A stretch of 64,000 nt of DNA from Indolivaga capnocytophagoides DSM 22835 (lineage in GTDB: Bacteria; Bacteroidota; Bacteroidia; Bacteroidales; Dysgonomonadaceae). The notes under the pieces were generated by a model, which worked only from the letters and a program-made list of their open reading frames with translations, was not told where the DNA came from and searched no databases. Position numbers and translations under genes: made by a program. The DNA lies in NCBI RefSeq assembly GCF_000426485.1, contig NZ_AUFL01000005.1, positions 1-64,000 of the forward strand. The letters are read 5' to 3'. This document shows positions 12,630 through 59,361 of this stretch, in pieces; positions within the stretch are counted from its first letter, which is position 1; each line of letters opens with the position of its first letter.

Positions 12630-12642
12630 AGGTCTGAGACCT
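12630..12642 (+). repeat. AGGTCTGAGACCT palindrome, 20 nt before the GH51 start
   Basis: Exact copy of the recurrent 13-mer (6-bp arms around a central G), followed by TAA. Upstream sequence from about 12566 (AAAGTATTTAAT, then ATAAAC) resembles the longer repeat seen at 59286-59361. Confidence 0.75.
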
Positions 12643-12662
12643 TAACCACTTAATTAATACAC

Positions 12663-14207
12663 ATGAAAAAAATCCTTACCACAGTTTATGCGATTTTGTT
12701 AGTTACATTCTCAGCATCATCACAGAATTCGGATGTTTCGATCCGTGTCTATCCCGAAAAGGGAAATCAAGTTATCAGCAAACACATTTACGGTCATTTT
12801 GCAGAGCATCTGGGGTCGTGTATATACGGCGGACTTTGGGTTGGGGAGAACTCTCCGATACCGAACACCAAAGGTTATCGCACAGATGTGCTTGAAGCCT
12901 TAAAAAAGCTGCAAATACCCAACCTGCGCTGGCCTGGAGGCTGTTTTGCAGATGAATACCACTGGATGGACGGAATAGGTCCTCGTGAAAAAAGGCCGAA
13001 GATGGTCAACAACAATTGGGGCGGCACTGTTGAAGACAATAGCTTCGGCACACACGAATTTCTTAACCTTTGCGAATTATTAGATTGCGAACCTTATATC
13101 AGTGGCAATGTCGGCAGCGGAACAGTTGAAGAACTTGCCAAATGGGTAGAATATATGACATCTGACGGAGACAGCCCGATGGCAAATCTGCGCCGTCAAA
13201 ACGGACGTGAAAAACCTTGGAAAGTAAAATACCTTGGTGTCGGAAACGAAAGCTGGGGATGCGGAGGCGATATGCTCCCTGAATATTATGCAGATCTGTA
13301 CCGCAGATATGCTGTATATTGCCGCAACTTCGACGGGAACCAGCTTTTCAAAATAGGCAGCGGTGCCAGCGACTATGATTATAACTGGACAGATGTACTA
13401 ATGAAAAAAGCAGGTAATAAAATGAATGGCTTATCGCTTCATTATTATACTGTAAAAGGATGGGGTAAGGACCAAAAAGGGTCTGCAACCAACTTTACCG
13501 ATGAAGACTACTACTGGACACTAGGCAAATCGCTCGAAATAGAAGAAGTCATACAAAAACATATGTCTATCATGGACAAATACGACAAAGACAAAAAAGT
13601 CGGTCTGATGGTGGACGAATGGGGTACATGGTTTGAAGTCGAACCCGGAACCAATCCCGGATTTCTTTATCAGCAGAATACAATGAGAGATGCTTTTGTA
13701 GCAGCACTAACGTTAAACACCTTCAACAAATACGGAGACCGTATACAAATGGCTAATATTGCTCAGGTTGTTAATGTTTTACAATCAATGATACTAACCA
13801 AAGACGATAAGATGACCCTAACCCCTACATATCATGTGTTTGATATGTATAGAGTACATCAGGATGCGACCTATTTACCTTTGGACATTATCTCTCAAAC
13901 TAAAGAAATCAGAGGACGGAATGTATCTTTAGTGAATGCTTCGGCTTCAAAAAAAGACGGACTGACTCATATTACTTTAGCGAATATAGACCTGACCAAT
14001 TCTCAGAATGTCAATATAGATTTATCAAATACGAAGATATCCAAAGTCAGCGGACGTATTCTTACTTCAAAAGATATACATGATCATAACACCTTCGAAA
14101 ACCCGAATCTGGTACAACCCCAGACTTTCAACGGCGCAAAAATCGTAAATGGTAAACTGAACGTTCAATTACCGGCTAAATCTATTGTTGTTCTCGAAAT
14201 ACAATAA
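12663..14207 (+). CDS. Secreted alpha-L-arabinofuranosidase, GH51
   Basis: A 514-residue retaining glycoside hydrolase that removes terminal arabinofuranose from arabinan or arabinoxylan. A signal peptide (1-20, ending FSASS/Q) sends it across the inner membrane. GH51 motifs: [30 protein letters not shown], the acid/base E196 in GVGNES and the nucleophile E319 in VDEWGTWF, followed by the C-terminal beta-sandwich. Length is usual for one-domain GH51 enzymes. It heads a pair with a second GH51 gene 334 bp downstream. No SusC/SusD pair or sensor is next to them, so this is not a typical full polysaccharide utilization locus. Confidence 0.93.
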
Positions 14208-14540
14208 AGGAATCAGATCTGTTTTATCTCTTTTTATCTATACGGAAAGGGACGAATTAATTAAGAGAAATCAGCTAGCACTGAAACAAATACCAATTGA
14301 AAGGGGAAAAGGTGTCATTCGAAAAAGTGTAATTTTAGAGTAACCTTTGTTACCTTTTAATTATGAGCAATTATCTGACACGAACAGGTAAGGTTACAAA
14401 AGGAAAAAGTAACACCCCAAAGCGTACACAAAGGGTGTAACCTTTGTTACCTTTTTCAAAATTGATAACTGTTGACTGATCACTGATTTTTGTCTTTTTC
14501 GATAAATACTCATTAATAAGCATTTATATTATAGAAAACA
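14208..14540. other. Intergenic region between the two GH51 genes
   Basis: No coding sequence is supported. Most of it (14321-14480) is a diverged copy of the GGTAACAAAGG repeat family described separately. No convincing terminator follows the first GH51 gene, so the second may be reached by readthrough. Confidence 0.5.
14321..14480. repeat. Diverged third copy of the 263-bp repeat family
   Basis: The stretch GAAAAAGTGTAATTTTAGAG, then TAACCTTTGTTACCTTTT, aligns with 48098-48133. The later part (AAAGTAACA..CCAAAGCGTACACAAAG, TGTAACCTTTGTTACC, TTGATAACTGTTGACTGAT) aligns with 48229-48330. The central GGGCGAATAATTATTCGCCC palindrome present in the other copies is missing. Confidence 0.7.
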
Positions 14541-17147: not shown

Positions 17148-17150
17148 GTA

Positions 17151-17186
17151 AAAAAGAAGACTGCCTCATTGAGGTAGTCTTCTTCA
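17151..17186 (+). terminator. Terminator after the GH51 pair
   Basis: Arms 17154-17167 and 17171-17184 pair over 14 positions, including one G-U, around a 3-nt loop, 4 nt after the stop codon. The trailing T tract is weak (TTCTTCATATA). Confidence 0.65.
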
Positions 17187-17196
17187 TATAATAGTC

Positions 17197-17273
17197 GAAA
17201 GCGTTCTAAAAGAACTTTGTTTAAAATCATAATAACCAATACAAAGGTTAATGAGTACTTTTCGAACGCTTTC
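17197..17273. repeat. Nested inverted repeat between GH51 and the Hsp20-like gene
   Basis: Outer arms GAAAGCGTTC (17197-17206) and GAACGCTTTC (17264-17273) are perfect complements. Inner arms AACTTTGT (17213-17220) and ACAAAGGTT pair with one bulge. The structure lies 7 nt after the Hsp20-like stop codon and could shape the 3' end of that transcript. Confidence 0.5.
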
Positions 17274-17279
17274 TTTATC

Positions 17280-17600
17280 TTATACAGACAAATCCTTTTT
17301 GGGAAACGATACTTTAAATGACCCGTGCTTGCAGTCCATACAACTGGACGATACATCTATAGAGCCCGGTATCTTTATATTTCTTAGGAAACAAGTATCG
17401 GTACCTCTCTGACAACCATATATACACAACACATTATCTTTGAAGCTCAATTTGAAATCGCCTTCATGAAATCCGGGAGCATACAATTCGATTCTGAATT
17501 CGTCTTTATTATCAACATAGCTTACTGACGAATAGCACCCGTGATGATAATCTCTTACTTGGCTTTGTTCCAAAGATGGTAATAAACGTCTACTCTCCAT
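17280..17600 (-). CDS. Cysteine-rich small Hsp20/alpha-crystallin-like protein
   Basis: A 106-residue protein with the alpha-crystallin core pattern: FRIELYAPGFHEGDFKLSF, NVLCIYG, then IPGSIDVSSS and GSFKVSFPKK in the usual order. Small heat-shock proteins hold unfolded proteins in solution. This one is shorter than the usual 140-150 residues, lacks the C-terminal IxI motif and has six cysteines, which is unusual for the family. The frame extends upstream to a TTG at 17642, but the ATG at 17600 (MESRRLLPSL) matches where such proteins begin. It could be a redox-responsive or metal-binding derivative; that is inference. It stands alone between convergent GH51 and an accessory lipoprotein gene. 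Confidence 0.7.
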   Translation of the reverse strand: MESRRLLPSLEQSQVRDYHHGCYSSVSYVDNKDEFRIELYAPGFHEGDFKLSFKDNVLCIYGCQRGTDTCFLRNIKIPGSIDVSSSCMDCKHGSFKVSFPKKDLSV

Positions 17601-17742
17601 AATTATTATTGATTGAAGTTTGTACATATTTATAACAAACAATCAGTCGAAATTGATTTGGTTCTTTTCATAAAGAATCTAAAAGATTTATAGGAATAAC
17701 GATAATAAATCAAAAAAGCTTAAGTATATATACAGAGGTTCA

Positions 17743-19365: not shown

Positions 19366-19396
19366 AGGTCTGTTTTATAAAAAATTAATAACAGCC

Positions 19397-19404
19397 CAAA
19401 GGTA
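19397..19404 (-). promoter_or_regulatory. Promoter -7 box of the lipoprotein gene
   Basis: TACCTTTG on the minus strand matches TAnnTTTG and lies 32 nt before the start codon. No good -33 element is seen. Confidence 0.4.
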
Positions 19405-24131: not shown

Positions 24132-25394
24132 TTAATAACCTCTGATCGCTTTTACTCCGGGAAGAACTTTTCCTTCGATAAATTCAAGCAATGCTCCACC
24201 ACCTGTAGATACATAAGATACCTGATCCGCCAATCCAAATTTATTCACACAAGCAACAGAGTCACCACCTCCAACGAGAGAAAATGCTCCATGTTTAGTA
24301 GCTTCTGCAATAGCCTCTGCAATAACTTTTGAACCATGAGCGAAATTATCAAATTCGAATACACCTACAGGACCATTCCATAGAATAGTTTTCGAATTTT
24401 TGATTACTTCAGAAAATTCAGCTTCACCTTTTGGACCTATATCAAAACCAGACCATCCGTCAGGAATATTAGCAGCATCAGCAAACTGAGAGTTCGCGTC
24501 ATTAGCAAACTTATCTCCGATCTTAGCATCCGATGCCAATACTAGGTTTACATTATTAGCCTTAGCTTTAGCCATTATTTCTTTAGCAAGATCCAGTTTA
24601 TCGTCTTCGCAAAGAGAGTTACCGATTTTTCCGCCTTTAGCTTTTTCGAAAGTAAACGCCATACCACCACCGATGATCAGATTGTCAACTTTAGATAGAA
24701 GGTTTTCGATAATATCAATTTTAGAAGAAACTTTAGATCCCCCGATAATTGCAGTAAACGGACGAGCAGGATCTTTCATGATTTTTTCGACTGCATCCAC
24801 TTCTTTTTGAAGCAGGTAACCAAACATTTTATGATCTGCATCAAACAAGTCGGCGATAAGAGCTGTAGATGCGTGTGCACGGTGAGCTGTACCGAAAGCA
24901 TCATTTACATATACATCAGCGTATGAAGCCAATGTTTTAGTAAATTCTTTCTGTGATTCTTTGACTGCTTTTTTAGCAGCAGCCTTCACTTCATCGGAAG
25001 CATCATCAGCTAATCCACGAGGTTTTCCTTCTTCCTCTGCATAAAAACGAAGGTTTTCAAGAAGAAGAGCCTCTCCGGGTTGCAAAGCAGCAGCTTTCAT
25101 AGCAGCCTCTTCGCTTGCACAATCACTTGCAAACTGAAGATCTACACCTAAAAGTTTAGACACATGAGCAAGAATGTGTTTCAATGAATATTTATCTTCA
25201 ACACCTTTAGGGCGACCCAAATGCGATGCAATAATAGGACTGCCACCATCAGCGATAATTTTTTTCAAAGTAGGCAGAGCTGCACGGATACGTGTGTCAT
25301 CAGTGATGTTAAAGTCCGCATCAAGAGGCACATTAAAGTCAACTCTCACAAAAGCCTTTTTACCGGCAAAGTTAAATTTGTCAATTGTTATCAT
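24132..25394 (-). CDS. pgk: Phosphoglycerate kinase
   Basis: The 420-residue glycolytic enzyme transfers phosphate from 1,3-bisphosphoglycerate to ADP. Landmarks: [10 protein letters not shown] near the start, ASHLGRPKG (substrate-binding), [27 protein letters not shown] (catalytic/substrate residues), [25 protein letters not shown] and the nucleotide-binding GPVGVFEF and [10 protein letters not shown] near the end. Length and order are standard for bacterial Pgk. An exact AGGTCTGAGACCT-type palindrome (minus orientation) lies 25 nt before the start, and a -7 box TATATTTG occurs at 25507-25500, so the palindrome would be in the leader. Confidence 0.97.
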
Positions 25395-25419
25395 AACTTT
25401 TTGAGTTTAAATATATTTA

Positions 25420-25432
25420 AGGTCTCAGACCT
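25420..25432 (-). repeat. AGGTCTGAGACCT palindrome, 25 nt before pgk
   Basis: Exact copy read on the minus strand, followed by TTAA and preceded by an ATAATAAT run as in the other copies. Confidence 0.8.
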
Positions 25433-25499
25433 ATTATTATTCTTAGAAAGAACCATTCATCCAGTAAACAAGTTACCGGTAATCACAAAATAAGCGATA

Positions 25500-26574: not shown

Positions 26575-27567
26575 ATGGCTCAAGTTGATATTCGAGAATT
26601 GAATGAACGGATCGAAAGTAAGAGTGCGTTTGTAAACATGATAACAATAGGAATGGACAAAGTAATCGTCGGGCAGAAACACCTTGTCGAATCTTTGTTG
26701 ATTGGATTATTATCTGATGGACACATCCTTCTGGAGGGGGTTCCCGGACTTGCAAAAACCCTTGCAATCAAAACATTGGCTTCTCTTATCGAAGCTGACT
26801 ATCATCGTATACAATTTACTCCTGACTTACTTCCTGCCGATGTTATCGGTACTATGATCTACAGCCAGAAGAATGAAGAATTTTTGGTAAAAAAAGGTCC
26901 CATCTTTTCTAACTTCGTATTAGCGGATGAGATCAACCGTGCTCCGGCAAAGGTACAGAGTGCCCTGCTTGAAGCAATGCAGGAACGTCAAGTCACAATT
27001 GGTGAAACCACTATGAAGCTGCCCAAACCATTCCTTGTAATGGCAACTCAAAACCCGATTGAACAAGAAGGAACATATCCTCTGCCTGAAGCTCAGGTAG
27101 ACCGTTTCATGCTGAAGGTTATCATAAACTACCCGAAGAAAGAAGAAGAAAAATTAATCCTTCGCCAAAACATCCTCAATCAATACGAAGAAATTAAACC
27201 GGTAATGAAGGCCGACGAAATCATCGAAGCCCGTAAAGTGGTAAGTGATGTATATCTGGATGAAAAAATAGAAAAATATATTGTCGACATTGTTTTTGCC
27301 ACACGTTTTCCTGCTGATAACGGACTGCAATCACTTAAAGGGCTAATTGGTTTCGGGGCATCACCTCGTGCATCTATCAGTTTAGCATTGGCATCGCGCG
27401 CTTATGCATTTATCAAACGCAGAGGATATGTAATCCCCGAAGACGTGAGAGCTGTATGCCACGATGTATTGCGCCACCGTATCGGACTTACATATGAAGC
27501 GGAAGCAAGCAACACAACATCTGAAGAAATCATCAGCGAAATCTTAAATAAGATAGAAGTACCTTGA
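26575..27567 (+). CDS. moxR: MoxR-family AAA+ ATPase of the bat operon
   Basis: A 330-residue cytoplasmic AAA+ ATPase with Walker A GVPGLAKT (55-62), Walker B VLADEI (115-120), sensor TQNPIEQEGTYPLPEAQVDRF and a C-terminal lid. MoxR proteins act as chaperone-like ATPases that work with von Willebrand factor A proteins, remodelling or activating them. Here it heads the genes for a DUF58 protein, a BatD-like protein, two VWA proteins and BatC-E, the order known from Bacteroides. The operon has been linked to stress and oxygen tolerance, though its exact target is unsettled. It is 92 bp upstream of the DUF58 gene. Confidence 0.93.
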   Translation: MAQVDIRELNERIESKSAFVNMITIGMDKVIVGQKHLVESLLIGLLSDGHILLEGVPGLAKTLAIKTLASLIEADYHRIQFTPDLLPADVIGTMIYSQKNEEFLVKKGPIFSNFVLADEINRAPAKVQSALLEAMQERQVTIGETTMKLPKPFLVMATQNPIEQEGTYPLPEAQVDRFMLKVIINYPKKEEEKLILRQNILNQYEEIKPVMKADEIIEARKVVSDVYLDEKIEKYIVDIVFATRFPADNGLQSLKGLIGFGASPRASISLALASRAYAFIKRRGYVIPEDVRAVCHDVLRHRIGLTYEAEASNTTSEEIISEILNKIEVP

Positions 27568-27659
27568 TTCTGTGACCAGTCAGGCAAATTCGGAGATATG
27601 TCCTGAACGATAAGTATCGGCATATTCTCACATTAGAAAATTGGCATATTAACTGATTT

Positions 27660-28538
27660 ATGGAAACAAGTGAATTACTAAAGAAAGTACGTCAGATAGA
27701 GATTAAGACCCGTGGATTGTCCCGCAATATTTTTGCAGGACAATACCATTCTGCATTCAAAGGAAGAGGGATGGCTTTTTCGGAAGTTCGGGAATATCAA
27801 TTCGGTGACGATATCCGCGATATAGATTGGAATGTAACAGCCCGTTATAATAAACCTTTCATAAAAGTATTCGAAGAAGAACGGGAAATGACCGTTATGC
27901 TCTTGATTGATGTATCGGGCAGTCTCGACTTCGGTACGCACAATCAAACGAAACGGGATATTGTAACTGAAATGGCTGCTACTCTGGCATTTTCGGCAAT
28001 ACAAAACAACGACAAGATCGGTGTTATATTCTTCACCAATAAAATTGAAAAATTCATACCTCCGAAAAAAGGGAAAAAGCACATCTTATACATTATTCGT
28101 GAACTGATTGATTTTCAACCAACCAACACCCAAACAGATTTGGCGATGGTACTGAAATTTCTCACTAACGCCATAAAAAAAAGATGCACGGCATTTCTTA
28201 TTTCCGATTTTCTGGATGTACACGACTACGACAATGCTTTGACCATAGCCAACAGAAAACATGACCTGATAGCATTACAGATCTATGACAAGTTGGAAAC
28301 GGAATTGCCTGCAGTTGGGCTAATAAAAATGATCGACGCAGAAACAGGTGAAGATACATGGATAGATTCCTCAGCTAAGTCTGTTCGTGAACGCTATCAT
28401 AGGCATTACCAGAAACAGTTGATGAAAGTAGAAATGGCATTTACCAAAAGCCGGGTCGACAGTGTGTCGATAAATACGGACGAAGATTATGTCAAATCAC
28501 TGTTATCGCTCTTTCAGAAAAGGAATTACATGAGATAA
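27660..28538 (+). CDS. DUF58 (VWA-like) protein of the bat operon
   Basis: A 292-residue soluble protein with the DUF58 signature REYQFGDDIRDIDWNVTARY (about 43-62) followed by a VWA-like metal site DVSGSLDFG (around 83-91). It lacks membrane segments, unlike some DUF58 proteins. It is the usual direct partner of MoxR in this operon and is presumed to be folded or activated by it. The reading frame ends within an AGGTCTGAAACCT-type palindrome, where the stop TAA supplies the first base. Confidence 0.9.
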   Translation: METSELLKKVRQIEIKTRGLSRNIFAGQYHSAFKGRGMAFSEVREYQFGDDIRDIDWNVTARYNKPFIKVFEEEREMTVMLLIDVSGSLDFGTHNQTKRDIVTEMAATLAFSAIQNNDKIGVIFFTNKIEKFIPPKKGKKHILYIIRELIDFQPTNTQTDLAMVLKFLTNAIKKRCTAFLISDFLDVHDYDNALTIANRKHDLIALQIYDKLETELPAVGLIKMIDAETGEDTWIDSSAKSVRERYHRHYQKQLMKVEMAFTKSRVDSVSINTDEDYVKSLLSLFQKRNYMR

Positions 28539-28550
28539 GGTCTGAAACCT
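28538..28550 (+). repeat. AGGTCTGAAACCT palindrome inside the bat operon
   Basis: Variant of the 13-mer with one arm mismatch, starting on the last base of the DUF58 stop codon and 30 nt before the next ATG. Confidence 0.7.
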
Positions 28551-28580
28551 TACTTTGTTTAGTATTAGATACAAAAACTT

Positions 28581-29696
28581 ATGTTGAGAAATAAAACGCT
28601 TATATTAACGATCTTACTTTGCTGCGTATCCTTACTGCCATACACCATGTATGCACAAAAGGCTACTGCAAGAGTAAGCGTCGAGCCATACGAGATTTCG
28701 ATCGGGCAACAAGCGACTATCAGTTTACAAGTCATTGCTCCGAAAGGACGGCATATAGCTATGCCGGTATATGCCGACTCGCTAGTCACCGGTATAGAAG
28801 TACTGGCTATGCCCAAACCTGATACCACTTATGCGCATGAGGTGATGACTATAGTGCAGAAGTATGTAGTAACCTCTTTCGACTCGGCATTATACCATGT
28901 ACCTTACATTCCTGTAATTGATGGAAAAGATACAATCAAATCTAACGAACTTGGATTAAAAGTAATCACACCTCCCTTATCGGAAGCGACAAATGCATAT
29001 CTGGAACATTTGAAAGCAAATCCGAATGACTCCATCGTCTTTGATAAGTTAGGTGTATATGACATCAAACCTATTTTGCAGCCACCTTTCGTGTGGCAAG
29101 ATTATCTGATATATATATTGGGTATATTGCTTATATTGATGGCAATTGCTGCTATTATAATAGGTATTTATCTGTACAAGCAAAAGAAGAAAAAAGGATA
29201 TTTCTTCAAACCGGAAGTTATCAAACCGCCTCATGTCATCGCATTAGATGCGCTAGATCATGTAAAAGTAGAAAAACTGTGGCAGCAAGGACGGGAAAAA
29301 GAGTATTATACTGAACTTACAGAGATACTTAGAAAATACATCGAAGATCGCTACCATGTTAATGCTTTTGAAAAGACATCCGATGAGATACTCGCTACCA
29401 TAAATAACTTTATGGAGGCAGATTCGTCTTACGAGAGCCTGAAACAGATATTGAAACTGGCAGACTTTGTTAAGTTCGCTAAGTATAGACCATATCCTGA
29501 CGAAAATGACTTAAGCCTGATCAATGCATACCTGTTTGTCAATCAGACTAAGGTAGAAGAAATCGCACCTCCTGCAAATGAAAATGGAGAATCTAAAAAA
29601 ACTTCGGATGAAGAAGAACACGAGGAAAATATCAACTGGTCGATTTCTGAAGATGATATGATCAATGATCATAAAAATGATAAAAAAAACAAATAG
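28581..29696 (+). CDS. BatD-like membrane protein of the bat operon
   Basis: A 371-residue protein with a signal peptide (1-25, ending MYAQ), a periplasmic beta domain (about 26-165), a membrane helix (LIYILGILLILMAIAAIIIG, about 173-195) and a cytoplasmic helical tail (KLWQQGREKEYYTELTEILR) ending in an acidic KTSDEEEHEEN stretch. This layout (beta domain, one helix, small cytoplasmic helical domain) is shared with BatD further downstream, although the sequence is shorter. It is the usual third gene in Bacteroidota bat operons and probably contacts the VWA proteins in the membrane. Confidence 0.8.
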   Translation: MLRNKTLILTILLCCVSLLPYTMYAQKATARVSVEPYEISIGQQATISLQVIAPKGRHIAMPVYADSLVTGIEVLAMPKPDTTYAHEVMTIVQKYVVTSFDSALYHVPYIPVIDGKDTIKSNELGLKVITPPLSEATNAYLEHLKANPNDSIVFDKLGVYDIKPILQPPFVWQDYLIYILGILLILMAIAAIIIGIYLYKQKKKKGYFFKPEVIKPPHVIALDALDHVKVEKLWQQGREKEYYTELTEILRKYIEDRYHVNAFEKTSDEILATINNFMEADSSYESLKQILKLADFVKFAKYRPYPDENDLSLINAYLFVNQTKVEEIAPPANENGESKKTSDEEEHEENINWSISEDDMINDHKNDKKNK

Positions 29697-29707
29697 GTCT
29701 GAGACCC
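29695..29707 (+). repeat. AGGTCTGAGACCC palindrome before batA
   Basis: Copy with one changed end base, overlapping the stop codon of the BatD-like gene and 15 nt before the batA start. Confidence 0.75.
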
Positions 29708-29722
29708 TAAATTACGTTCGAA

Positions 29723-30706
29723 ATGGAATTTGCAAACCCTAAATATCTGTTTTTACTCATTTTATTAATACCTCTCATTGTCTGGTATATCATAAAATTG
29801 AGAAAAGTACAGCCGACACTGAAGATGTCATCGACCGGAGCATTCAGAGGAGTGTCTCCTACAATCAAAGTATATCTCAGACATGTTCCGTTTATATTAA
29901 GGATGATAGCTATAGCATTAGTTATCATTGTTATCGCAAGACCTCAAAATTCCAATTCATGGGAAACGTCCCAATCGGAAGGTATTGATATTGTTATGGC
30001 TCTTGACGTATCCGGATCTATGATGGCTCAGGACTTCAAGCCAAACCGTCTGGAGGCGGCAAAAAAAGTCGCTTCTGAGTTTATCTCGGATCGGGAACAA
30101 GACAAAATAGGATTGGTAATCTTCGCCGGAGAAAGCTTCACGCAAGCACCCCTGACTACCGATCATGGGGTATTACTCAACTTATTGCATGAAATTCGCC
30201 CCGGAATGATCGACGACGGTACAGCTATAGGTCTAGGTTTAGCAAATGCTGTCAACAGACTGAAAGACAGCCAGACAAAATCAAGAATTGTCATACTCCT
30301 TACCGATGGTTCAAATAACCGGGGACAAATAGCTCCGATCACAGCTGCCGAACTTGCCAAGAGTTATGGTATCAGGGTATATACTATCGGGGTGGGAACA
30401 CGAGGAACGGCTCCTGCACCTGTAATGACTCCCTTCGGAGAACGTATACAAAACGTACCTGTAGATATAGACGAAAAGACATTAACTCAGATAGCCGAAA
30501 TGACCGGAGGTGAATATTTCCGAGCTGTAGACAATTCGAGTTTGAAAAAAATATATGCGCAGATCGACTCTATGGAGAAATACCTTATCAGCGTCAACAA
30601 AGTTACCCGCAAGCAGGAATTATACCTGCCTTACGCCCTATTGGCATTGGGCTTGATTCTAAGCGAAGTAATCTTACGCCGTACCTGGTTACGTAATATT
30701 CCATAA
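29723..30706 (+). CDS. batA: BatA, VWA-domain membrane protein
   Basis: A 327-residue inner-membrane protein with two N-terminal helices (about 7-24 and 55-72), a von Willebrand A domain with intact MIDAS DVSGS (95-99), the second MIDAS Thr region (APLTTDH) and LLTDGSNN, and a C-terminal helix (about 305-322). The VWA domain faces the periplasm or cytoplasm depending on helix insertion, which is not settled from sequence. BatA and BatB are thought to form a complex with MoxR and BatC. The product is the expected length. Confidence 0.92.
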   Translation: MEFANPKYLFLLILLIPLIVWYIIKLRKVQPTLKMSSTGAFRGVSPTIKVYLRHVPFILRMIAIALVIIVIARPQNSNSWETSQSEGIDIVMALDVSGSMMAQDFKPNRLEAAKKVASEFISDREQDKIGLVIFAGESFTQAPLTTDHGVLLNLLHEIRPGMIDDGTAIGLGLANAVNRLKDSQTKSRIVILLTDGSNNRGQIAPITAAELAKSYGIRVYTIGVGTRGTAPAPVMTPFGERIQNVPVDIDEKTLTQIAEMTGGEYFRAVDNSSLKKIYAQIDSMEKYLISVNKVTRKQELYLPYALLALGLILSEVILRRTWLRNIP

Positions 30707-30733
30707 GTTATCTGTTTGAAAAATAAATAAAAT

Positions 30734-30746
30734 AGGTCTGAGACCT
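30734..30746 (+). repeat. AGGTCTGAGACCT palindrome before batB
   Basis: Exact copy, followed by TAA and 15 nt before the batB ATG, the same spacing as at batA. Preceded by AATAAATAAAAT. Confidence 0.8.
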
Positions 30747-30761
30747 TAAACAGTAGTTGAT

Positions 30762-31784
30762 ATGTTTCGATTTGCTAATCCAGAATATTTATATCTGTTA
30801 TTTTTACTTCCGGTTCTGATAGCTGGATTCATTTTCCTGAATATCCAGAAAAGAAAAGCGGCACAGAAACTCGGAGACTTACGTCTGGTAAAACGACTGA
30901 TGCCGGAGTTATCTCTAAAACGGTCGTATCTGAAATTTTGGCTGGTATTTGCCATCTGTGTTTTGGGAATCATTGTTGTAGCACGCCCTCAGTTCGGAAC
31001 TAAGGTTGAGAAAGTCGAACGAAAAGGAATCGAGCTGGTGATTGCAATAGATGTATCGAATTCAATGCTTGCCCGTGATGTAAATCCAGACAGACTATCG
31101 AAAGCAAAGCAAATACTAACGCGTATAGTCGATGAACGTAAAAACGACAAAGTTGCGATTGTAGTCTTCGCCGGAGAATCATATGTACAATTACCTATGA
31201 CTACCGACATACAATCGGCCAAAATATTCCTGGACAACATCAATACATCTCTTGTTCCTGTACAGGGGACAGTTATCGGAAGTGCCATAAATATGGCAAT
31301 GAATAGTTTTACCAGTGACAAAGAGGTGGATAAGTCTATCATTCTGATAACCGATGGTGAAGACCATGAGGATAATGGTGTGCAGATGGCTCAACAAGCC
31401 GGAGCAGCAGGTATACAGATCAATGTGGTAGGTATCGGAACTCCTGAGGGATCACCTGTACCGTCATCACCGAACAGCAATGATATGAAAAAGGATAACG
31501 AAGGCAATGTCGTTGTTTCTAAATTAAACGAAGAGATGTGTAAACAAATAGCTCAGGCCGGAAAAGGAATGTACGTAAGAGCCGATAACTCAAACAATGC
31601 ATTAAAAAGCCTTCAGGCTGAGTTAGACAAGTTGCAGAAGAAGAATGTAGACGGAGTATCATATTCGGAGTATGACGAAAAATTCCAGTTCTTCGCATGG
31701 TGTATGCTTGTATTGCTTATCATCGAAGTTTGTATTTTCGATAAGAAAAATAAAATATTCAGAGGAATAAGACTCTTCAAGTAA
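30762..31784 (+). CDS. batB: BatB, VWA-domain membrane protein
   Basis: A 340-residue paralogue of BatA with helices at about 8-27 and 57-74, MIDAS DVSNS (97-101), LPMTTD, and ITDGEDHEDN, then a C-terminal helix (about 310-330). BatA and BatB are adjacent and similar, consistent with a heteromeric VWA pair. In Bacteroides the Bat proteins have been implicated in aerotolerance. The neighbouring batC TPR protein is a likely partner. It is separated from batC by 92 bp that contain a diverged member of the intergenic repeat. Confidence 0.92.
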   Translation: MFRFANPEYLYLLFLLPVLIAGFIFLNIQKRKAAQKLGDLRLVKRLMPELSLKRSYLKFWLVFAICVLGIIVVARPQFGTKVEKVERKGIELVIAIDVSNSMLARDVNPDRLSKAKQILTRIVDERKNDKVAIVVFAGESYVQLPMTTDIQSAKIFLDNINTSLVPVQGTVIGSAINMAMNSFTSDKEVDKSIILITDGEDHEDNGVQMAQQAGAAGIQINVVGIGTPEGSPVPSSPNSNDMKKDNEGNVVVSKLNEEMCKQIAQAGKGMYVRADNSNNALKSLQAELDKLQKKNVDGVSYSEYDEKFQFFAWCMLVLLIIEVCIFDKKNKIFRGIRLFK

Positions 31785-31810
31785 CCGCAAGAGGTTCTTG
31801 AAGTATTATT

Positions 31811-31867
31811 TCCATTCAACAATCTGTTGTTATACTTACCAAAGTAATAAAAAGGCCAAGAGCCTTC
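31811..31867 (+). repeat. Dispersed intergenic repeat between batB and batC
   Basis: GTTATACTTACCAAAGTAATAAAAAGG matches the copy at 59325-59351 in parts (GTTATACTT, CCAAAGTAATAAA). The terminal palindrome is altered to AGGCCAAGAGCCT (31853-31865) with 4-bp arms, 11 nt before the batC ATG. Confidence 0.65.
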
Positions 31868-31876
31868 GATAGAACT

Positions 31877-32629
31877 ATGAAACAAATTTTTGTTATAATA
31901 TTCGTTTTGATATCTACAAGTTGCTTGTTTGCTCAACGACAAGTAAGGAAGGATATACGTAAGGGTAATAATGCCTATAAAGAACAATTATACAATGCTG
32001 CCGAGGCCAGCTACAAGTCGGCTTTGGAAAAGAATGCAGCATCTCCCGAAGCAATTTATAACCTAGCTAACTCTTACTACAAACAAGGCAACTGGGATAA
32101 TGCTCTGAAAACATATCAGCAGTATCTGGCGACGGAAAATAAAGACCATACCAAAATGGGTGCGGCATGGCACAATATTGGAAATGCTCTATTGCAGAAG
32201 AAAGATCTGAAGCAGTCGATGGAAGCATATAAGAAAGCATTGAGGCTAAATCCCGGAGACGAAGAAGCGCGTTATAATCTGGCTACAGTCCAGAAAATAA
32301 CAAAGGATCAACAGGACAATAAGGATAAAAACAAAGACCAGAATAAAGATCAAAACAAAGATCAGAAAGACAAAAATAAGGATCAGAATAAAGACCAGAA
32401 CAAGGATCAAAACAAAGATCAAAAAGATAAAGATAAGGATCAGAACAAAGACCAGAATAAGGATCAAAAACAAGATCAGCAGCCCCAAATGTCTCAGGAG
32501 AACATCCAGCAGCTATTGAAAGCAATAGAGCAGGACGAAAAAGAGACTCAGGAGAAAGTTCAGCAAATCAAAGCTTCTGACCGTAAACAAAAGAACGAGA
32601 ATAATCGCAGGCAAAATAAAGACTGGTAA
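31877..32629 (+). CDS. batC: BatC, TPR protein with a KDQN-repeat tail
   Basis: A 250-residue protein with a signal peptide (1-20, ending CLFAQ), three tetratricopeptide-like helices pairs (about 30-140, YNLANSYYKQGNWDNALKTY, AWHNIGNALLQKKDLKQSM), then a highly charged stretch made of NKDQ/NKDK units (about 148-205) and a basic C-terminal end (KASDRKQKNENNRRQNK). TPR domains mediate protein contacts, probably with BatA/BatB. The charged repeat is an imperfect tandem of 12-nt units at DNA level, likely to vary in length between strains. Confidence 0.88.
   Translation: MKQIFVIIFVLISTSCLFAQRQVRKDIRKGNNAYKEQLYNAAEASYKSALEKNAASPEAIYNLANSYYKQGNWDNALKTYQQYLATENKDHTKMGAAWHNIGNALLQKKDLKQSMEAYKKALRLNPGDEEARYNLATVQKITKDQQDNKDKNKDQNKDQNKDQKDKNKDQNKDQNKDQNKDQKDKDKDQNKDQNKDQKQDQQPQMSQENIQQLLKAIEQDEKETQEKVQQIKASDRKQKNENNRRQNKDW
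32319..32487. repeat. Tandem 12-nt (NKDQ) repeat inside batC
   Basis: About fourteen imperfect four-codon units (aataaagatcag and variants) encode NKDQ/NKDK, interrupted at intervals by a KDK unit. In-frame unit length means slippage would change protein length without a frameshift. Confidence 0.8.
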
Positions 32630-32672
32630 AAAACCAACGCTATTTGTCTTGATGTAAAATTCGAAAAAGCAG

Positions 32673-34514
32673 ATGTGTACAATGCAAAAATATTTAATTT
32701 TATTTATTTTATCATTACTAAGCTTAGGTATAAACGCACAGGAAGTAACATTCAGAGCCAGTGCTCCTAATACTGTAGCCAAAGGCGACAATTTCAGACT
32801 TGTATATACACTGAGAGGCGGAGAAGGCAGCAATATCAACGTTCCTGAGACTATAAAAGGATTTGACATACTCTATGGCCCCGCAGTATCATCGAGTTAC
32901 AGTACTCAGATTATAAACGGTAAAGCGACAACAGACTCTTCCGAATCGTATATTTATACTATGACTGCTGCATCGGAAGGAACATTTACCATACCGGCCG
33001 CAACAATCAGGGTAAATGGAAAAACCTACACTTCAAATTCGATACAGATAAAAGTTCTGCCTCCGGATAAAAATACAAAAGCAACACAACAAGGAGGAGG
33101 AAATCAAGGAGGACAACCCTCTGAATCATCATCCACTGCTCAAAAAATAAGTTCATCGGATGCTTTTATCCGAGCGATTGTATCTAAATCGAAAGTTTAC
33201 GAACAAGAAGCATTTACTGTAACATTCCGTTTTTATACTACACTGCAGGTATCGGATATCGGAAAAATAGAATTTCCCGAGTTTGAAGGCTTTATGGTCG
33301 AAGATCAGGACCTACCTCCTACCCGTCAGCTGACTATGGAACACTATAATGGTCGGAATTACTATTCGGTAGATCTCAGACGGACATTGCTATTCCCTCA
33401 ACGATCAGGAAAGATAACCATACCATCGGGTAAAATAGAAATGGTTTTTAATGTCAGATCTGGAAAAGCAGTCCAGACATTCTTTGGTCCACAATACGTC
33501 ATGACAGACGTAAAAAAAACCATGACAACCAGCCCGTTGACTATTAATGTAACTCAACTGCCGGAAGGAAAACCCGCAAACTTTTCTAATGGAGTCGGCT
33601 CATTCAGTATGTCCCAGTCAATTACCTCTACCAATGTGAAGGCTAATGATGCGGTTACACTTAAACTGGTTATTTCGGGTACAGGGAATATGAAATTGAT
33701 CAAAACACCTGAACTGGAATTACCGAAAGATTTTGAATCGTATGATCCTAAGATAACCAACGATCTCAAATACACAGACAAAGGATTGACAGGTACAAAA
33801 ACCATCGAATACTTATTTATACCCCGTTATCAGGGAACGTATAAAATACCGCCCGTCATACTGTCTTATTTCGATAATAATTCGAATTCATATAAAACGC
33901 TGTCGACACCCGAATATACCTTGAACGTAGCTAAAGACCCGAATGCAGGACAAAACAACGCTACCAGTTTCAACCAATCGGAGGTGAAAGTAGAGCAGGA
34001 TATCCGTTATCTGAAAACAGGCAATCCTTCGTTTACGAAAACAGACTCTTTCTTTTTCGGTTCTACAGCATATTACCTGTGGTACATAATTCCGATGCTG
34101 ATTTTTATTGTTTGTTTCATTCTTTATAGAAAACAGATAAAAGAAAATGCGGATGTTATCAGAGTGAAAACTAAACAAGCGAATAAGGTAGCTGTAAAAC
34201 GCCTTAAGCTTGCCGGTAAATATTTGCAAGCACATCAGAAAGAACAATTTTATGAAGAGGTACTCCGTGCAACATGGGGATACTTGAGCGATAAACTGGT
34301 CATTCCCGTAGCGAATCTAAACCGTGATAATATAGAAAACGAACTTATCAGGTACGGAGCATCCTCCGAACTTATAAGCAAATTTATTTCGATACTTGAT
34401 ACCTGCGAGTTTGCCCGTTATGCTCCTGTCGAATCCGATACAGCTATGGACAATCTATACAAAGACACTGTAGATGCTATTGGAGAAATGGAAAATCTGA
34501 AGGTCAAAAAATAA
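32673..34514 (+). CDS. batD: BatD, oxygen-tolerance family membrane protein
   Basis: A 613-residue protein with a signal peptide (about 1-22, ending GINAQ), several periplasmic immunoglobulin-like repeats (VTFRASAPNTVAKGDNFRLV at the start), a membrane helix (about 468-488, YYLWYIIPMLIFIVCFILY) and a cytoplasmic helical domain to the end. This is the BatD architecture. Two start codons are possible, ATG at 32673 and ATG at 32682; either keeps the signal peptide. Length is usual for the family. It lies 43 bp after batC and 27 bp before batE, in one operon. Confidence 0.9.
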   Translation: MCTMQKYLILFILSLLSLGINAQEVTFRASAPNTVAKGDNFRLVYTLRGGEGSNINVPETIKGFDILYGPAVSSSYSTQIINGKATTDSSESYIYTMTAASEGTFTIPAATIRVNGKTYTSNSIQIKVLPPDKNTKATQQGGGNQGGQPSESSSTAQKISSSDAFIRAIVSKSKVYEQEAFTVTFRFYTTLQVSDIGKIEFPEFEGFMVEDQDLPPTRQLTMEHYNGRNYYSVDLRRTLLFPQRSGKITIPSGKIEMVFNVRSGKAVQTFFGPQYVMTDVKKTMTTSPLTINVTQLPEGKPANFSNGVGSFSMSQSITSTNVKANDAVTLKLVISGTGNMKLIKTPELELPKDFESYDPKITNDLKYTDKGLTGTKTIEYLFIPRYQGTYKIPPVILSYFDNNSNSYKTLSTPEYTLNVAKDPNAGQNNATSFNQSEVKVEQDIRYLKTGNPSFTKTDSFFFGSTAYYLWYIIPMLIFIVCFILYRKQIKENADVIRVKTKQANKVAVKRLKLAGKYLQAHQKEQFYEEVLRATWGYLSDKLVIPVANLNRDNIENELIRYGASSELISKFISILDTCEFARYAPVESDTAMDNLYKDTVDAIGEMENLKVKK

Positions 34515-37480: not shown

Positions 37481-37553
37481 GCTCTCACAAGCCTTTATAT
37501 TAAATTTGTCAATATTAAATTCTAAAAAGCAATTTAAGACTTGTTTTTGATTA

Positions 37554-37660
37554 AGGTCTCAGACCTGTTTAGTGCTTTGGTAAGCACAATAGCCAGAGCC
37601 TGTTATAAACTAAAATATATTATTAATATTTGTATAATTTATAAAACACCTCATATTTTG
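37554..37660 (-). repeat. Dispersed intergenic repeat, long copy (minus orientation)
   Basis: On the minus strand the order is AATATGAGGTGTTTTATA, AATAATATATTTT, TTATAAC, GGCTCTGGCTATTG, TGCTTACCAAAG, then AGGTCTGAGACCT (37566-37554) and TTAA. It matches the copy at 12297 (plus flanking AATATGAGGT at 12374-12383) with a short insertion, and the one at 59286. Confidence 0.65.
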
Positions 37661-37791
37661 ACGAAAAACGTTATAGAACCATCTCATCCTCTACAGATTG
37701 GGTTGGTTCTATCTCGTTATGAACTAAAGAAGAAAAGACTTGTCGGCTTATAAACCCGTTTACTTAGAATTTACTTATCAATATAATAAAA

Positions 37792-37804
37792 AGGTCTGAG
37801 ACCT
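37792..37804 (+). repeat. AGGTCTGAGACCT palindrome before the DPP III gene
   Basis: Exact copy, 18 nt before the ATG, preceded by ATAATAAAA as in other members. Confidence 0.8.
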
Positions 37805-48276: not shown

Positions 48277-48456
48277 CGGAAAATTTAAAATGAGCATTTG
48301 ATTATTGTTTATTGATAACTGTCAACTGATTTAAATGTTACCTTTTGCTTTCCTTGATGATATCAAAATTGATTATTCGGACTTAGATTCGCTTCAATCG
48401 TAATTTTTGTTTTAATTTTGTTCTTACAGTCTAGAGCTGTTTACTAATATACAAAT

Positions 48457-48469
48457 AGGTCTGCGACCT
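48457..48469 (+). repeat. AGGTCTGCGACCT palindrome before nadE
   Basis: Member of the family with one arm change, 16 nt before the nadE ATG, preceded by ATACAAAT. Confidence 0.7.
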
Positions 48470-48485
48470 CAATACGAAAGATATT

Positions 48486-50512: not shown

Positions 50513-50520
50513 CAGCCCAA

Positions 50521-50533
50521 AGGTCGTGAACCT
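50521..50533 (+). repeat. AGGTCGTGAACCT element in the porin leader
   Basis: Imperfect relative of the palindrome family (4-bp arms) near the predicted transcription start, 80 nt before the ATG. Membership is uncertain. Confidence 0.35.
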
Positions 50534-50613
50534 CTTTGTTGCTCCGGCAACTAAAGTTGATTGTATTAAACAAGAGTCTCATAAAACTCTATCAATTATT
50601 TATTTTAGATTTC

Positions 50614-52085: not shown

Positions 52086-52116
52086 ATAGACCTTTCTAAA
52101 ATGTAAAGAAAGTAAC

Positions 52117-53566: not shown

Positions 53567-53583
53567 AACACCATAATTGATTG

Positions 53584-54993: not shown

Positions 54994-54994
54994 A

Positions 54995-56497: not shown

Positions 56498-56536
56498 GCG
56501 CCTGTTATTTCATCAATAAATCAACGATTTAACTCT

Positions 56537-56799
56537 AAAAGGTAACAAAGGTAATAGCCTTTATGCACACTTTGCTCTGTTACTTCTTACCAATTTCGGA
56601 ACTTCACCTGCCCATAGAGTCAAAACCTTTCGCTTGTAGATACCGGGAGAATAATTATTCGCCCCTACAGAATCCCCGAAAAGGTTACAAAGGTTACACT
56701 GAAAATATACTTTTTGCATTGTTACCTTATTGGCACATTTTCAGATTGTCTCATCAGATACCAACCATTTAAAGAACGCTTTTACTATAGATAAAAAAG
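56537..56799 (-). repeat. 263-bp repeat, right copy of an inverted pair
   Basis: Reverse complement of 48014-48276 with scattered mismatches. The internal palindrome is GGGAGAATAATTATTCGCCC (56645-56664), one base off the left copy. Together with the left copy it flanks nadE, the porin and the three-gene acetylation cluster. Confidence 0.88.
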
Positions 56800-56911
56800 A
56801 CAAAAGAGACTGTCAGCCTAGATAAAATCCCAAAGAGGTATCACCCCCTTATTTAACAACACATGACACAATTTTCCGCTCAAAAAGTCTAACTATAATT
56901 AAGTTATAAGC

Positions 56912-56919
56912 TATCTTTG
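56912..56919 (+). promoter_or_regulatory. Promoter -7 box of the B12-regulated receptor
   Basis: TATCTTTG followed by C matches TAnnTTTGC, a few bases upstream of the riboswitch. Confidence 0.5.
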
Positions 56920-56929
56920 CAATGTTGTT

Positions 56930-57072
56930 TTGTTCCTCTTCGGGTAACTTTATCTCTACTCCCGAAACGGATGCAAAAGGGTAATCGGGTGAAAATCCCG
57001 GACAGACCCGCTACTGTAAGCTAAACCTAGAAATAATAAAGGTAAAAGCAAGTCAGAAAACCTGCAAAACGA
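56930..57072 (+). ncRNA. Cobalamin riboswitch
   Basis: The conserved core reads GGATGCAAAAGGGTAATCGG, then GTGAAAATCCCGGACAGACC and CGCTACTGTAA (56968-57018), followed by the B12 box AGTCAGAAAACCTGC (57051-57065). The order, spacing and key bases (GGTGAAAATCCCG, GACCCGC, ACTGTAA, CCTGC) are those of the AdoCbl riboswitch family. It lies about 120 nt before a BtuB-like receptor gene and should switch it off when cobalamin is abundant. Confidence 0.92.
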
Positions 57073-57193
57073 CTCCAATCAGACAGCTTTCGAGGGATAA
57101 AGCTTAAGATAGAATCTTCGATTTCTTTCTCTTCAAACTCCCATTCAGAAAGCTGGAATGATTATTTATAAATAAAAATTCTAAGCAACTGTA

Positions 57194-59188
57194 ATGAAGT
57201 TTTACCATATTCTCCCGCTTGTTATCATACAAAGTTATGCTTTATCTGCCGTCGGTCAGGTTAAAGACTCTATCGGTACCCAGCACATTCAAGAAGTAGA
57301 AGTTTCGGCTAAGCTACATCCTTCGATGACCCTGTCGAGTAATCCGGTGCAAACCTTCTCCGGCTCAACCATAGACAAGGTTGGTATTCTTTCAGTTGCG
57401 GATGCTGTACGCCGCTTTTCGGGTGTGGTTGTAAAAGATTTTGGAGGAATAGGAGGAATGAAAACCATTGCTGTAAGAGGTGTAGGCTCAGAACACACTG
57501 CTGTCTTATACGATGGTATGGCTGTGAGTAATGCACAATCGGGACAAATAGATATAGGTAAATTCTCCCTTGATAATGTAGAAATGATATCCTTGACGAT
57601 AGGACAGTCCGACGATATATTCCGTACCGCACGCTCATTGGGAGCCGTTGGAGTATTAGATATACAAACCTCAACACCTCAGTTTAAGCAAAAAGATTAT
57701 TCGGCAAAAGTACAGCTGCGCGCCGGATCGTGGGGACAATTTAATCCATATGTGTATTATGCTCATAAATTGGGCAATAAATTTACACTGTCACTTGACG
57801 GAAGCTGGCAAAGAGCCGACGGACGATACAGATTTGAGATGGATAATATATCCGAAAAATATAAGGGAAAAAGAAATAACACTGATGTTGATATTAAACG
57901 GACAGAACTCAATCTGTTTGGCAATCTCACAGAAAAGCAAAAGCTATCTTTTAAACTTTACTACTTCGACTCGGAACGGGGATTACCAGGTGGAGTAGTC
58001 ATATATTCTGATCAGAAAAACGGAGAACGGCTCTGGGACAAAGATTTTTTCACTCAAGCCAAATATCTTAATTACCTGAATGATAAATTCGACTTACAGG
58101 TACAAGCCAAATATACTCATACATGGACTAAATATATTGACAAAAACCCTAAGCAGCCTAATGGCGAATTAATGAATAAGTACATCCAGAATGAACTGTA
58201 TGTAACTGGTACCCTACTCTACAATCTCAGTAAGAACATATCTTTTTCTTTAGCAGAAGATATCAGCTATGGGCATTTGAGTGCCAATCTTCCTAAATTT
58301 GCTTATCCCGACAGGTACACTTCACTGTCTGCTCTTTCTGGAAAATATCAAGACGACAGATTAACTGTAGTCGGAAAACTCTTAGGGACATATGTATCCG
58401 AAGATGTAGAAAACGGATTAGCAGCAAGTGATAAAAAAAGGTTATCACCATCGGTCAGTCTCTCGTACAAATTACTGGATGAAACCAATTTGCGGGTAAG
58501 GGCTTCTTATAAAGATATATTCAGAGTACCGTCCTTTAACGATTTATATTATACAAACTCAGGAAATTCGTCTCTCAAACCTGAGAAAACCAAACAGTAC
58601 AATATCGGACTAACATGGTCTGAGTCATTCTCCGACTTGTTTAGTTTCTTGTCTGTTACAACGGATTTTTACCACAATACAGTAAAAGATAAAATTATCA
58701 TTTACCCTTCTTCATTCAATCCGAAGTCTGTAAATTTGGGAAAAGTCATCATCGATGGTTTCGACATAAATGTAAACACAAGAATGGACTTTAATACTAA
58801 AGTAAACCTTCAATTATCGGGAAGCTATACATATCAGCATGCAATAGACAAAACCAATGCCGAAGATAAAAACTACAAAGACCAGATACCTTATACCCCT
58901 CGTCATTCGGGAGCCGGATCGGCAAGTCTTGAAAACCCATTTTTGAATATTTCTTATTCTATAGTACTTAGCGGAAAAACATATTCTCTGCCCCAGAATA
59001 TTGATAGTAACAAAATCAGTCCATATCTCGATCAGACAATATCGGTGAACAAATCATTCAATATAGGAATGGTATCAATGCGGGCTCAAGCCGACATTTC
59101 GAATCTGGCAAACAAAATCTATTATATTATGGACGGATATCCTATGCCGGGGCGTGCATATCGTTTCACGTTGAGAATGAACTTCTAA
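57194..59188 (+). CDS. btuB: BtuB-like TonB-dependent cobalamin receptor
   Basis: A 664-residue outer-membrane protein. A signal peptide (1-21, ending SAVGQ) is followed by a TonB-box-like region (IQEVEVSAK), the plug domain (FSGSTIDKVGILSVADAVRR, IAVRGVGSEHTAVLYDGMAV) and a 22-strand type barrel ending in aromatic RFTLRMNF. It lies directly behind a cobalamin riboswitch, so cobalamin or a corrinoid is the likely substrate. It lacks a preceding carboxypeptidase-like domain, in line with BtuB rather than SusC. No btuCDF genes are adjacent. Confidence 0.9.
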   Translation: MKFYHILPLVIIQSYALSAVGQVKDSIGTQHIQEVEVSAKLHPSMTLSSNPVQTFSGSTIDKVGILSVADAVRRFSGVVVKDFGGIGGMKTIAVRGVGSEHTAVLYDGMAVSNAQSGQIDIGKFSLDNVEMISLTIGQSDDIFRTARSLGAVGVLDIQTSTPQFKQKDYSAKVQLRAGSWGQFNPYVYYAHKLGNKFTLSLDGSWQRADGRYRFEMDNISEKYKGKRNNTDVDIKRTELNLFGNLTEKQKLSFKLYYFDSERGLPGGVVIYSDQKNGERLWDKDFFTQAKYLNYLNDKFDLQVQAKYTHTWTKYIDKNPKQPNGELMNKYIQNELYVTGTLLYNLSKNISFSLAEDISYGHLSANLPKFAYPDRYTSLSALSGKYQDDRLTVVGKLLGTYVSEDVENGLAASDKKRLSPSVSLSYKLLDETNLRVRASYKDIFRVPSFNDLYYTNSGNSSLKPEKTKQYNIGLTWSESFSDLFSFLSVTTDFYHNTVKDKIIIYPSSFNPKSVNLGKVIIDGFDINVNTRMDFNTKVNLQLSGSYTYQHAIDKTNAEDKNYKDQIPYTPRHSGAGSASLENPFLNISYSIVLSGKTYSLPQNIDSNKISPYLDQTISVNKSFNIGMVSMRAQADISNLANKIYYIMDGYPMPGRAYRFTLRMNF

Positions 59189-59215
59189 GGATATCAACCT
59201 ATCAATATAGAAAAC

Positions 59216-59250
59216 AAAAAGGTCCTTGAAAATAATTCAAGGACTTTTTT
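59216..59250 (+). terminator. Terminator after the BtuB-like receptor
   Basis: GTCCTTGAA (59222-59230) pairs with TTCAAGGAC (59235-59243), followed by a T run. Confidence 0.88.
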
Positions 59251-59285
59251 GTGAGAAGATATAAAACCTTTTAAGTAAACAAAAG

Positions 59286-59361
59286 TATTTAATCATTTGT
59301 TTCCAAGTTATAGCAAACTAAGGTGTTATACTTGCCAAAGTAATAAATAGGTCTATGACCT
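59286..59361 (+). repeat. Dispersed intergenic repeat, long copy
   Basis: Order: TATTTAATCATTTGTTTC, CAAGTTATAGCAAACT, GTTATACTTGCCAAAG (59325-59340), TAATAAAT, then the variant palindrome AGGTCTATGACCT (59349-59361). It shares this order with 12360-12297 (minus) and, less closely, 37660-37554 (minus). The last base overlaps the stop codon of the minus-strand nucleotidyltransferase gene, so here it is not before a gene. Confidence 0.7.

Follow-up and report, generated by a model that had tools for sequence, protein, structure and literature searches.

The 13-bp palindrome AGGTCTNAGACCT that recurs in the window (the whole stretch of 64 kb analysed here) is the right end of an AT-rich, non-coding element of about 94 bp, which is present in many intergenic copies in Dysgonomonas. 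With high probability, the 13-mer is one end of a non-autonomous, MITE-like transposon with the form TA + 89 bp + TA, whose insertion duplicates the TA.

An earlier note on this DNA had reported nine sites for the palindrome, and all of them were found at their positions with 0 or 1 mismatch each. The window contains 9 matches at up to two mismatches, and 100 dinucleotide shuffles of it gave a mean of 1.84 (sd 1.33, largest value 7). The genome-wide count that the note had proposed yielded 276 exact copies of AGGTCTNAGACCT in the 4.38 Mb (38 contigs) of the window's genome, and none of the same sequence written backwards, used as a control. In 864 kb of this genome, 84-88% of which was called coding with a crude ORF caller of our own, 68 of 70 exact sites and 63 of 65 one-mismatch sites were intergenic. 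Genes were called by a longest-ORF script, in such a way that start positions are approximate. The preference for intergenic DNA is thus upheld, but the statement that all the window sites are non-coding is too strong, as those at 28538, 29695 and 59349 touch a stop codon. Seven of the nine sites do lie 15-30 nt upstream of a start codon in the orientation defined by the central G, as had been noted. The recurrence of the 13-mer is also real, but the 13-mer makes up just one end of a larger repeat, and the window holds at least three more copies of this repeat without the 13-mer (12295-12388, 31779-31859 and a weak one at 50520-50602).

At the 83 of 134 sites (up to one mismatch, window's genome) that could be oriented, conservation reaches about 80 nt leftward of the palindrome, and iterated profile searches converged on an element of 94 to 95 columns, with 125 matches at E ≤ 0.001 in 864 kb of the window's genome and 74 in 400 kb of D. 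alginatilytica. The boundaries are sharp, with no conservation past the left end and little past the right one, and the consensus is AT-rich, with 21 G or C among 94 bases. The left end reads TAAGTAACAGAAAGTATTTAATG... and the right end ...CAATAAAWAGGTCTGAGACCTTA(A), the latter being TAAGGTCTCAGACCTWTTTATTG when reversed. Both tips carry TAAG and then a TATTTAWTG-like sequence at positions 15-23, with the same spacing (TAAG-N10-TATTTAWTG, a consensus read by eye), so that the ends constitute imperfect, short inverted repeats; the palindrome is the 10-nt spacer (N10) of the right end. For tests on full-length copies, a match had to span roughly positions 5-85. Of 121 near-full copies, 58 measure exactly 94 bp and 24 measure 93 bp, and 96 fall between 92 and 95 bp. 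The dinucleotide TA is found at both junctions of most of the 58 ungapped copies (left T in 56 and A in 51; right T in 56 and A in 49).

Four full or nearly full copies were found in the window, among them the one at 12295-12388 that lacks the 13-mer, together with two diverged copies also without the 13-mer, one shortened copy (30734) and right-end remnants:

12295..12388, minus strand: full-length element with a degenerate palindrome (HMM 1-94, E 2e-16); the minus-strand ORF 12294..11908 has its start on the side of the right end.
12553..12645, plus strand: full-length element, 13-mer at 12630-12642 (HMM 1-94, E 1.4e-16); right end about 20 nt upstream of an alpha-L-arabinofuranosidase-like gene (12663-14207).
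25417..25448, minus strand: right-end copy, 13-mer at 25420-25432 (HMM 63-94, E 0.003); located 3' of a promoter-like TAnnTTTG motif in the phosphoglycerate kinase leader (gene 25394..24132).
28535..28552, strand ambiguous: right-end-like remnant, 13-mer at 28538-28550 (E 0.32); on the TAA stop of a DUF58 gene (27660-28538).
29688..29709, plus strand: right-end remnant (E 0.0077); overlaps the stop of 28581-29696, 15 nt upstream of a BatA-like gene (29723).
30672..30749, plus strand: shortened element, 13-mer at 30734-30746 (E 2.8e-5); 15 nt before a BatB-like gene (30762).
31779..31859, plus strand: element with a mutated palindrome (HMM 2-85, E 1.6e-9); its left end covers the stop codon of 30762-31784.
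37551..37626, minus strand: nearly full-length element, 13-mer at 37554-37566 (HMM 18-94, E 2.3e-16).
37770..37804, plus strand: right-end copy, 13-mer at 37792-37804 (HMM 57-91, E 5.4e-5); 18 nt upstream of an M49 peptidase-like gene (37823).
48423..48472, plus strand: right-end copy, 13-mer at 48457-48469 (HMM 39-94, E 7.7e-4); 16 nt upstream of the NAD synthase gene (48486).
50520..50602, minus strand: weak, diverged element without the 13-mer (HMM 1-92, E 4.2e-4).
59272..59363, plus strand: full-length element, 13-mer at 59349-59361 (HMM 1-93, E 2.6e-16); the minus-strand gene 60299..59361 takes its TAA stop from the right end of this copy.

The region 26575-34514 of the window is a Bat-type cluster with the order MoxR-DUF58-unknown-BatA-BatB-TPR-BatD, in which two right-end remnants, one shortened element and one diverged element occupy four intergenic gaps.

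Variants of the element were also observed. In D. alginatilytica (C1:132768, 252826 and 254829; L062, L068) a large GGGGCAGACC...GGTCTGCCCC-like hairpin lies immediately to the left of the right end; two of these copies are about 123 bp long, and they resemble a REP nested inside the element. A second body type with the same ends, about 168 bp long and with TTTGCCAAATCGCGATAAACGA-like sequence, is present in the window's genome at C1:527693-527860 (L037) and C1:636875 (L042), and the same transposase may mobilise it as a separate element; similar sequence lies to the left of a right end at C1:164430 of D. alginatilytica (L064). At C1:548302-548375 of the window's genome (L038), two inverted right ends 61 bp apart fill an intergenic gap of 88 bp, the orthologous gap of D. 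macrotermitis being 31 bp long.

Comparison between species points to mobility. Among 61 orthologous gene pairs compared between the window's genome and D. alginatilytica, 31 have the element in neither genome, 15 only in D. alginatilytica, 9 only in the window's genome and 6 in both. For the 13-mer, 72 gene pairs compared with D. macrotermitis, the nearest relative examined, gave 43 with the site in neither genome, 21 only in the window's genome, 4 only in D. macrotermitis and 4 in both. Few sites are therefore common to species (6 of 30 element-bearing pairs and 4 of 29, respectively). In the window, the position aligned with the copy at 37551..37626 is free of the element in all four congeners compared, the D. 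alginatilytica gap having a 13-mer elsewhere. In the phosphoglycerate kinase leader the promoter-like TAnnTTTG is kept in all three species aligned, and the 13-mer is missing from the orthologous leaders of D. macrotermitis and of the congener G001. Of five window gaps aligned across congeners, only that of 30734 has a site common to all species: here all five species compared have the right end, and the body occurs in three states: D. macrotermitis has it complete, G001, D. alginatilytica and G005 have a similar short form, and the short form of the window's genome is a different one.

Empty sites were searched with 222 full-length copies, removed and flank-joined, as queries against 2.8 Mb of DNA, and 23 junction-spanning alignments were obtained from 17 queries at 16 loci. 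Four loci could be aligned through the junction with one TA in the empty site and two in the filled one. Two of them are D. alginatilytica loci matched to Dysgonomonas sp. HGC4 over 304 columns at 84% and 94% identity, another comes from the window's genome compared with D. macrotermitis (76% identity, 214 columns), and the last from G005 compared with D. alginatilytica and G001 (85% and 82% identity). Four other loci show a TA beside a gapped junction. The remaining eight have no TA in the aligned empty site and lend no support to TA duplication; most are gapped or have 70-82% identity, one (a G005 copy) being aligned at 89-90%, and divergence can account for them. Within D. alginatilytica, identity between copies reaches 96-98% for the closest ones. 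The following features of a MITE are found in this element: short uniform length, sharp ends, terminal inverted repeats, dispersed copies, presence/absence differences between genomes, and a target-site duplication seen in the junction TA of most copies and in the single-TA empty sites of four loci.

Among 30 relatives, the exact 13-mer has 40 to 267 copies in four of five congeners and none in the fifth (G003, 62% complete), 2 copies in one of 13 genomes of the same family, and none in 12 genomes of the same order. At the level of the phylum, 18 of 395 genomes have a match, counting that of the window; sixteen of the other 17 have one copy and one has four. A scan for the extended right end recovered 59 stretches, nearly all of them named Dysgonomonas (strains without a species name as well as D. 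alginatilytica, D. macrotermitis and D. hofstadii); three are MAG contigs titled Bacteroidales or Prevotella. The records titled Prevotella sp. (TD116 MAGs; L151, L163) could in fact come from relatives of Dysgonomonas under a wrong name. With a sequence-only model derived from 60 copies, the element was detected in 21 of the 61 family genomes searched, with at least 69 matches in five of six genomes of the genus (the window's included) and in two genomes of another genus, and 14 matches from three genomes of this other genus have almost the same length and consensus. The congener G003 gave a single match with the model, a scarcity which may reflect either its incompleteness or a true loss. 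Viral contigs had no match to the exact right-end pattern, and phages and plasmids none to one element copy used as query. An intergenic (CT)n tract (839741-839780) was also observed at C1:839740-839825 of the window's genome (L052), and similar stretches, found at many places in G001 and D. macrotermitis, are possibly phase-variable promoters.

The position of the element with respect to stop codons was analyzed, and statistically the placement of the right end at them is orientation-specific. Both tips begin with A after the TA, so that insertion into the TA of a stop codon rebuilds TAA. On a stop codon we found 24 of the 122 full-length right ends, in the orientation opposite to that of start-facing ones; they come from a total of 55 right ends that face a stop, and among the 46 left ends facing one, 10 are also on it, whereas random TA sites in element-spliced intergenic DNA fall on one in 2.4% of cases. 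At the gene edge itself, right ends lie exactly on the stop in 24 cases and 0-20 nt beyond it in 3, while the corresponding numbers for left ends are 3 and 11 (Fisher p 4e-5 with counts 23, 3, 3, 11, as the 12-nt overlap rule gives 23 right ends on a stop and 24 if deeper overlaps are allowed). This right-end bias is present in both genomes, 15 vs 1 in that of the window and 9 vs 2 in D. alginatilytica. The A-tips permit the overlap with stops, but the asymmetry between the ends is not explained by them. Apart from a stop at depth 11 and another immediately beyond the edge, no called gene runs into the right end in a different frame. In three orthologue pairs (own2 40, own2 145 and window 20) the protein terminates at one and the same position whether or not the right end is there, and in two others (own1 67 and own1 86) the C-termini differ. 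Past the element, 14 of the 24 genes with a stop-abutting right end have a same-strand neighbour, and 7 of these neighbours start within 40 nt of the left end.

Placement near start codons was measured after leaving out the sites inside called genes or lacking neighbours on both sides. In full copies, 31 of 66 start-facing right ends are at 11-40 nt from the start (13% expected), and 30 of 75 start-facing left ends are within 40 nt of it (17% expected). In full copies, then, both ends tend to lie near starts, and this proximity does not distinguish the right one. The right end is also preserved alike in full copies wherever they are, with 1.05 mismatches on stops (n = 22), 1.24 near starts (n = 38) and 1.03 elsewhere (n = 63; p = 0.6), and this absence of an effect of gene proximity weakens the claim of selection at gene edges. 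A different picture comes from 13-mers without a recognisable body, which are 79 of the 130 scored in the window's genome and are probably remnants of the element; at 30734 a relative does have the full element, and at most of these loci the intergenic DNA is too diverged between the window's genome and D. macrotermitis to trace the origin. Among the start-facing sites of this kind, 46 of 57 are within 40 nt of the start, with a peak at 12-18 nt, in the window's genome, and 5 of 12 in D. alginatilytica, so the strong start peak is limited to the first of the two genomes compared. A promoter-like TAnnTTTG was found 15-120 nt upstream of 16 of the 46 body-less start-proximal sites vs 28% of 438 control starts, an enrichment not worth claiming.

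In order to know what the right end could do as RNA, its folding was analyzed. It is predicted to form a hairpin of 5-6 bp (AAGGUC-UCA-GACCUU) with energies of -4.6 to -6 kcal/mol and weak z values of -1.1 to -2.0. Read from the outer side, its energy is -5.1 to -5.5 kcal/mol, the U-rich UUUAUU comes next and several right ends score as terminator-like, so that directly past a stop codon the predicted hairpin and U-rich tract would resemble a weak terminator. Over 154 copies, the palindrome arms show 14 double compensatory cells vs a shuffle mean of 2.9 (max 8), a modest excess, since controls with the palindrome slid along gave 4-13 double changes, the copies are related, and 4 of the 14 are one single change, all in D. 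alginatilytica. At one G005 site both arms are changed together in the aligned G001 sequence. Inside the body, a candidate stem ATAAC...GTTAT was rejected, with 0.664 of the cells pairing vs 0.661 in shuffles. The helix CTTTGG/CCAAAG (loop/3') has 0.640 of its cells paired vs a shuffle maximum of 0.621, and 52 double changes vs a shuffle maximum of 54, or 57 when slid by one. A search with Rfam gathering thresholds in the window and four other loci gave nothing at the element, its only hits being tRNA and a cobalamin riboswitch elsewhere. This riboswitch (56918-57083, plus strand) lies just 5' of a TonB-dependent receptor gene (57194-59188), and both likely form a B12 uptake unit.

The enzyme that could mobilise the element was also sought. 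DDE_3 (PF13358), searched for in the window's genome only, and DDE_Tnp_1 gave no match there, and Y1_Tnp (PF01797) gave none in that genome, in G003 or in G005. Genes for Y1 proteins of the RAYT-like type are present in three congeners (D. alginatilytica, D. macrotermitis and G001), and at these three loci the 13-mer is absent even with two mismatches allowed, and the element model gives a single weak match (E 0.005). In the DNA scanned, no pair of left and right ends was found around a transposase-like ORF, and no convincing autonomous candidate appeared. Duplication of a TA fits enzymes of the IS630/Tc1-mariner type, but it is not diagnostic of them because other TA-duplicating IS groups exist.

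The earlier note had proposed a leader hairpin or a regulator site. One version of this would make the 13-mer primarily a cis-acting leader element, or an RNA hairpin for translation or stability, that a mobile element has captured or spreads. The peak of body-less right ends at 12-18 nt before starts, the right end kept before the BatB-like gene in five species with three body states, the excess of compensatory cells and the paired arm change between G005 and G001 speak for it. However, the 13-mer ends a transposing element of about 94 bp; few sites are common to species, 30734 being the only such one among the aligned window gaps; fewer than half of the start-facing body-less sites of D. alginatilytica are near a start; many right ends are on stops in the opposite orientation; left ends are enriched near starts too; the right end is no better kept near gene edges; the hairpin is weak, and the slid controls reach similar numbers of double changes. 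We consider this reading unlikely as a primary explanation; as a leader hairpin, the right end may have a secondary function. As a binding site for a global transcription regulator or a nucleoid protein, the 13-mer would offer a perfect palindrome in many sites, but its arms sometimes change together, the sites turn over between species and the conservation extends over 94 bp with sharp ends, all of which leaves this explanation very little probability.

Another option is that the right end serves as a portable 3'-end module or intrinsic terminator, favoured by selection where it adjoins a stop codon. The asymmetry of both ends at stops, which is seen in both species, the U-rich tract after the hairpin and the terminator-like scores of several right ends agree with this. 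By contrast, a strong terminator would silence the same-strand neighbour that follows in more than half of the genes, often at a short distance, unless the element carries a promoter; moreover, a terminator has no need to touch the stop codon, and the hairpin is short. We regard this option as possible, though doubtful. A repeat of the REP/BIME class moved by a RAYT would account for a short intergenic palindrome in hundreds of copies, and three congeners do have RAYT-like genes, but the lack of Y1 in the other three genomes, the absence of the 13-mer from the Y1 loci, and the two TIR-like ends with TA junctions largely refute it, in such a way that it is the least credible of these explanations. 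Y1 transposases are not known to insert through TIR-like ends with TA junctions.

Our preferred reading remains that of a MITE-like transposon. In the mechanism that we propose, a transposase acting in trans would insert the element at a TA and duplicate it. When this TA belongs to a TAA or TAG stop codon, insertion would rebuild TAA and leave the protein unchanged, as the sequence logic and the three orthologue pairs suggest. With time the copies would change and their bodies disappear; statistically, right ends do lie preferentially against stops or about 15 nt before starts. The likeliest reason would be a role in RNA, where the right end would be terminator-like past stops and tolerated or useful in leaders.

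Porphyromonas is another genus of the Bacteroidales. BrickBuilt and other MITEs are described in P. gingivalis (PMC5771137); BrickBuilt contains, by the title of a paper cited in that work, a minisatellite, and its likeness to the Dysgonomonas element is by description only. The nearest described relative in kind is the RUP element of pneumococcus, similar in size (about 107 bp), AT-richness, intergenic location (108-110 copies), TIRs and terminal TA with insertion at TA, for which mobilisation in trans has been proposed (PMC2229807, PMC3049150). RUP has a proposed partner with similar TIRs, IS630-Spn1, whereas none was found for the Dysgonomonas element, and the passages on RUP contain no end-specific placement at stops or starts like the one described here. 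The Correia/NEMIS repeats of Neisseria, as presented in the passages on them, are also MITEs with TIR, target-site duplication and terminal TA; their transcribed stem-loops are RNase III targets and their insertions can create promoters, whereas the body of the Dysgonomonas element has no clear covarying stem. In E. coli, REPs within 15 nt of stop codons are reported to stall ribosomes (PMC12306157), and REPs belong with Y1/RAYT proteins (PMC2817692). They resemble the right ends in being palindromic and close 3' of stops, but the Dysgonomonas unit is two-ended, has TA junctions and makes the stop codon part of the junction. In the open-licence PMC literature we found no description of a MITE or of a palindromic intergenic repeat in Dysgonomonas; the 13-mer is absent from it, and one 11-mer core appears once each in three unrelated papers.

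Within this literature, the element would be the first described MITE family of Dysgonomonas and its neighbours. Its uniform length in genomes of two genera makes the search for the mobilising enzyme tractable. The finding explains a puzzling motif that looked regulatory, and it serves as a warning that a conserved palindrome before starts can be the end of a transposon. As a tentative extension, on which we would not insist, the right end may be a ready-made gene-border module, giving a TAA, a hairpin and a U-rich tract in one direction and a hairpin about 15 nt before starts in the reverse one, in such a way that transposition might have reorganised 3' ends and leaders in hundreds of Dysgonomonas genes, the body decaying and the end being retained by selection. 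The bias of the right end onto the stop codon itself is unusual; it might reveal the way in which mRNA ends come to include a mobile repeat as a regular component.
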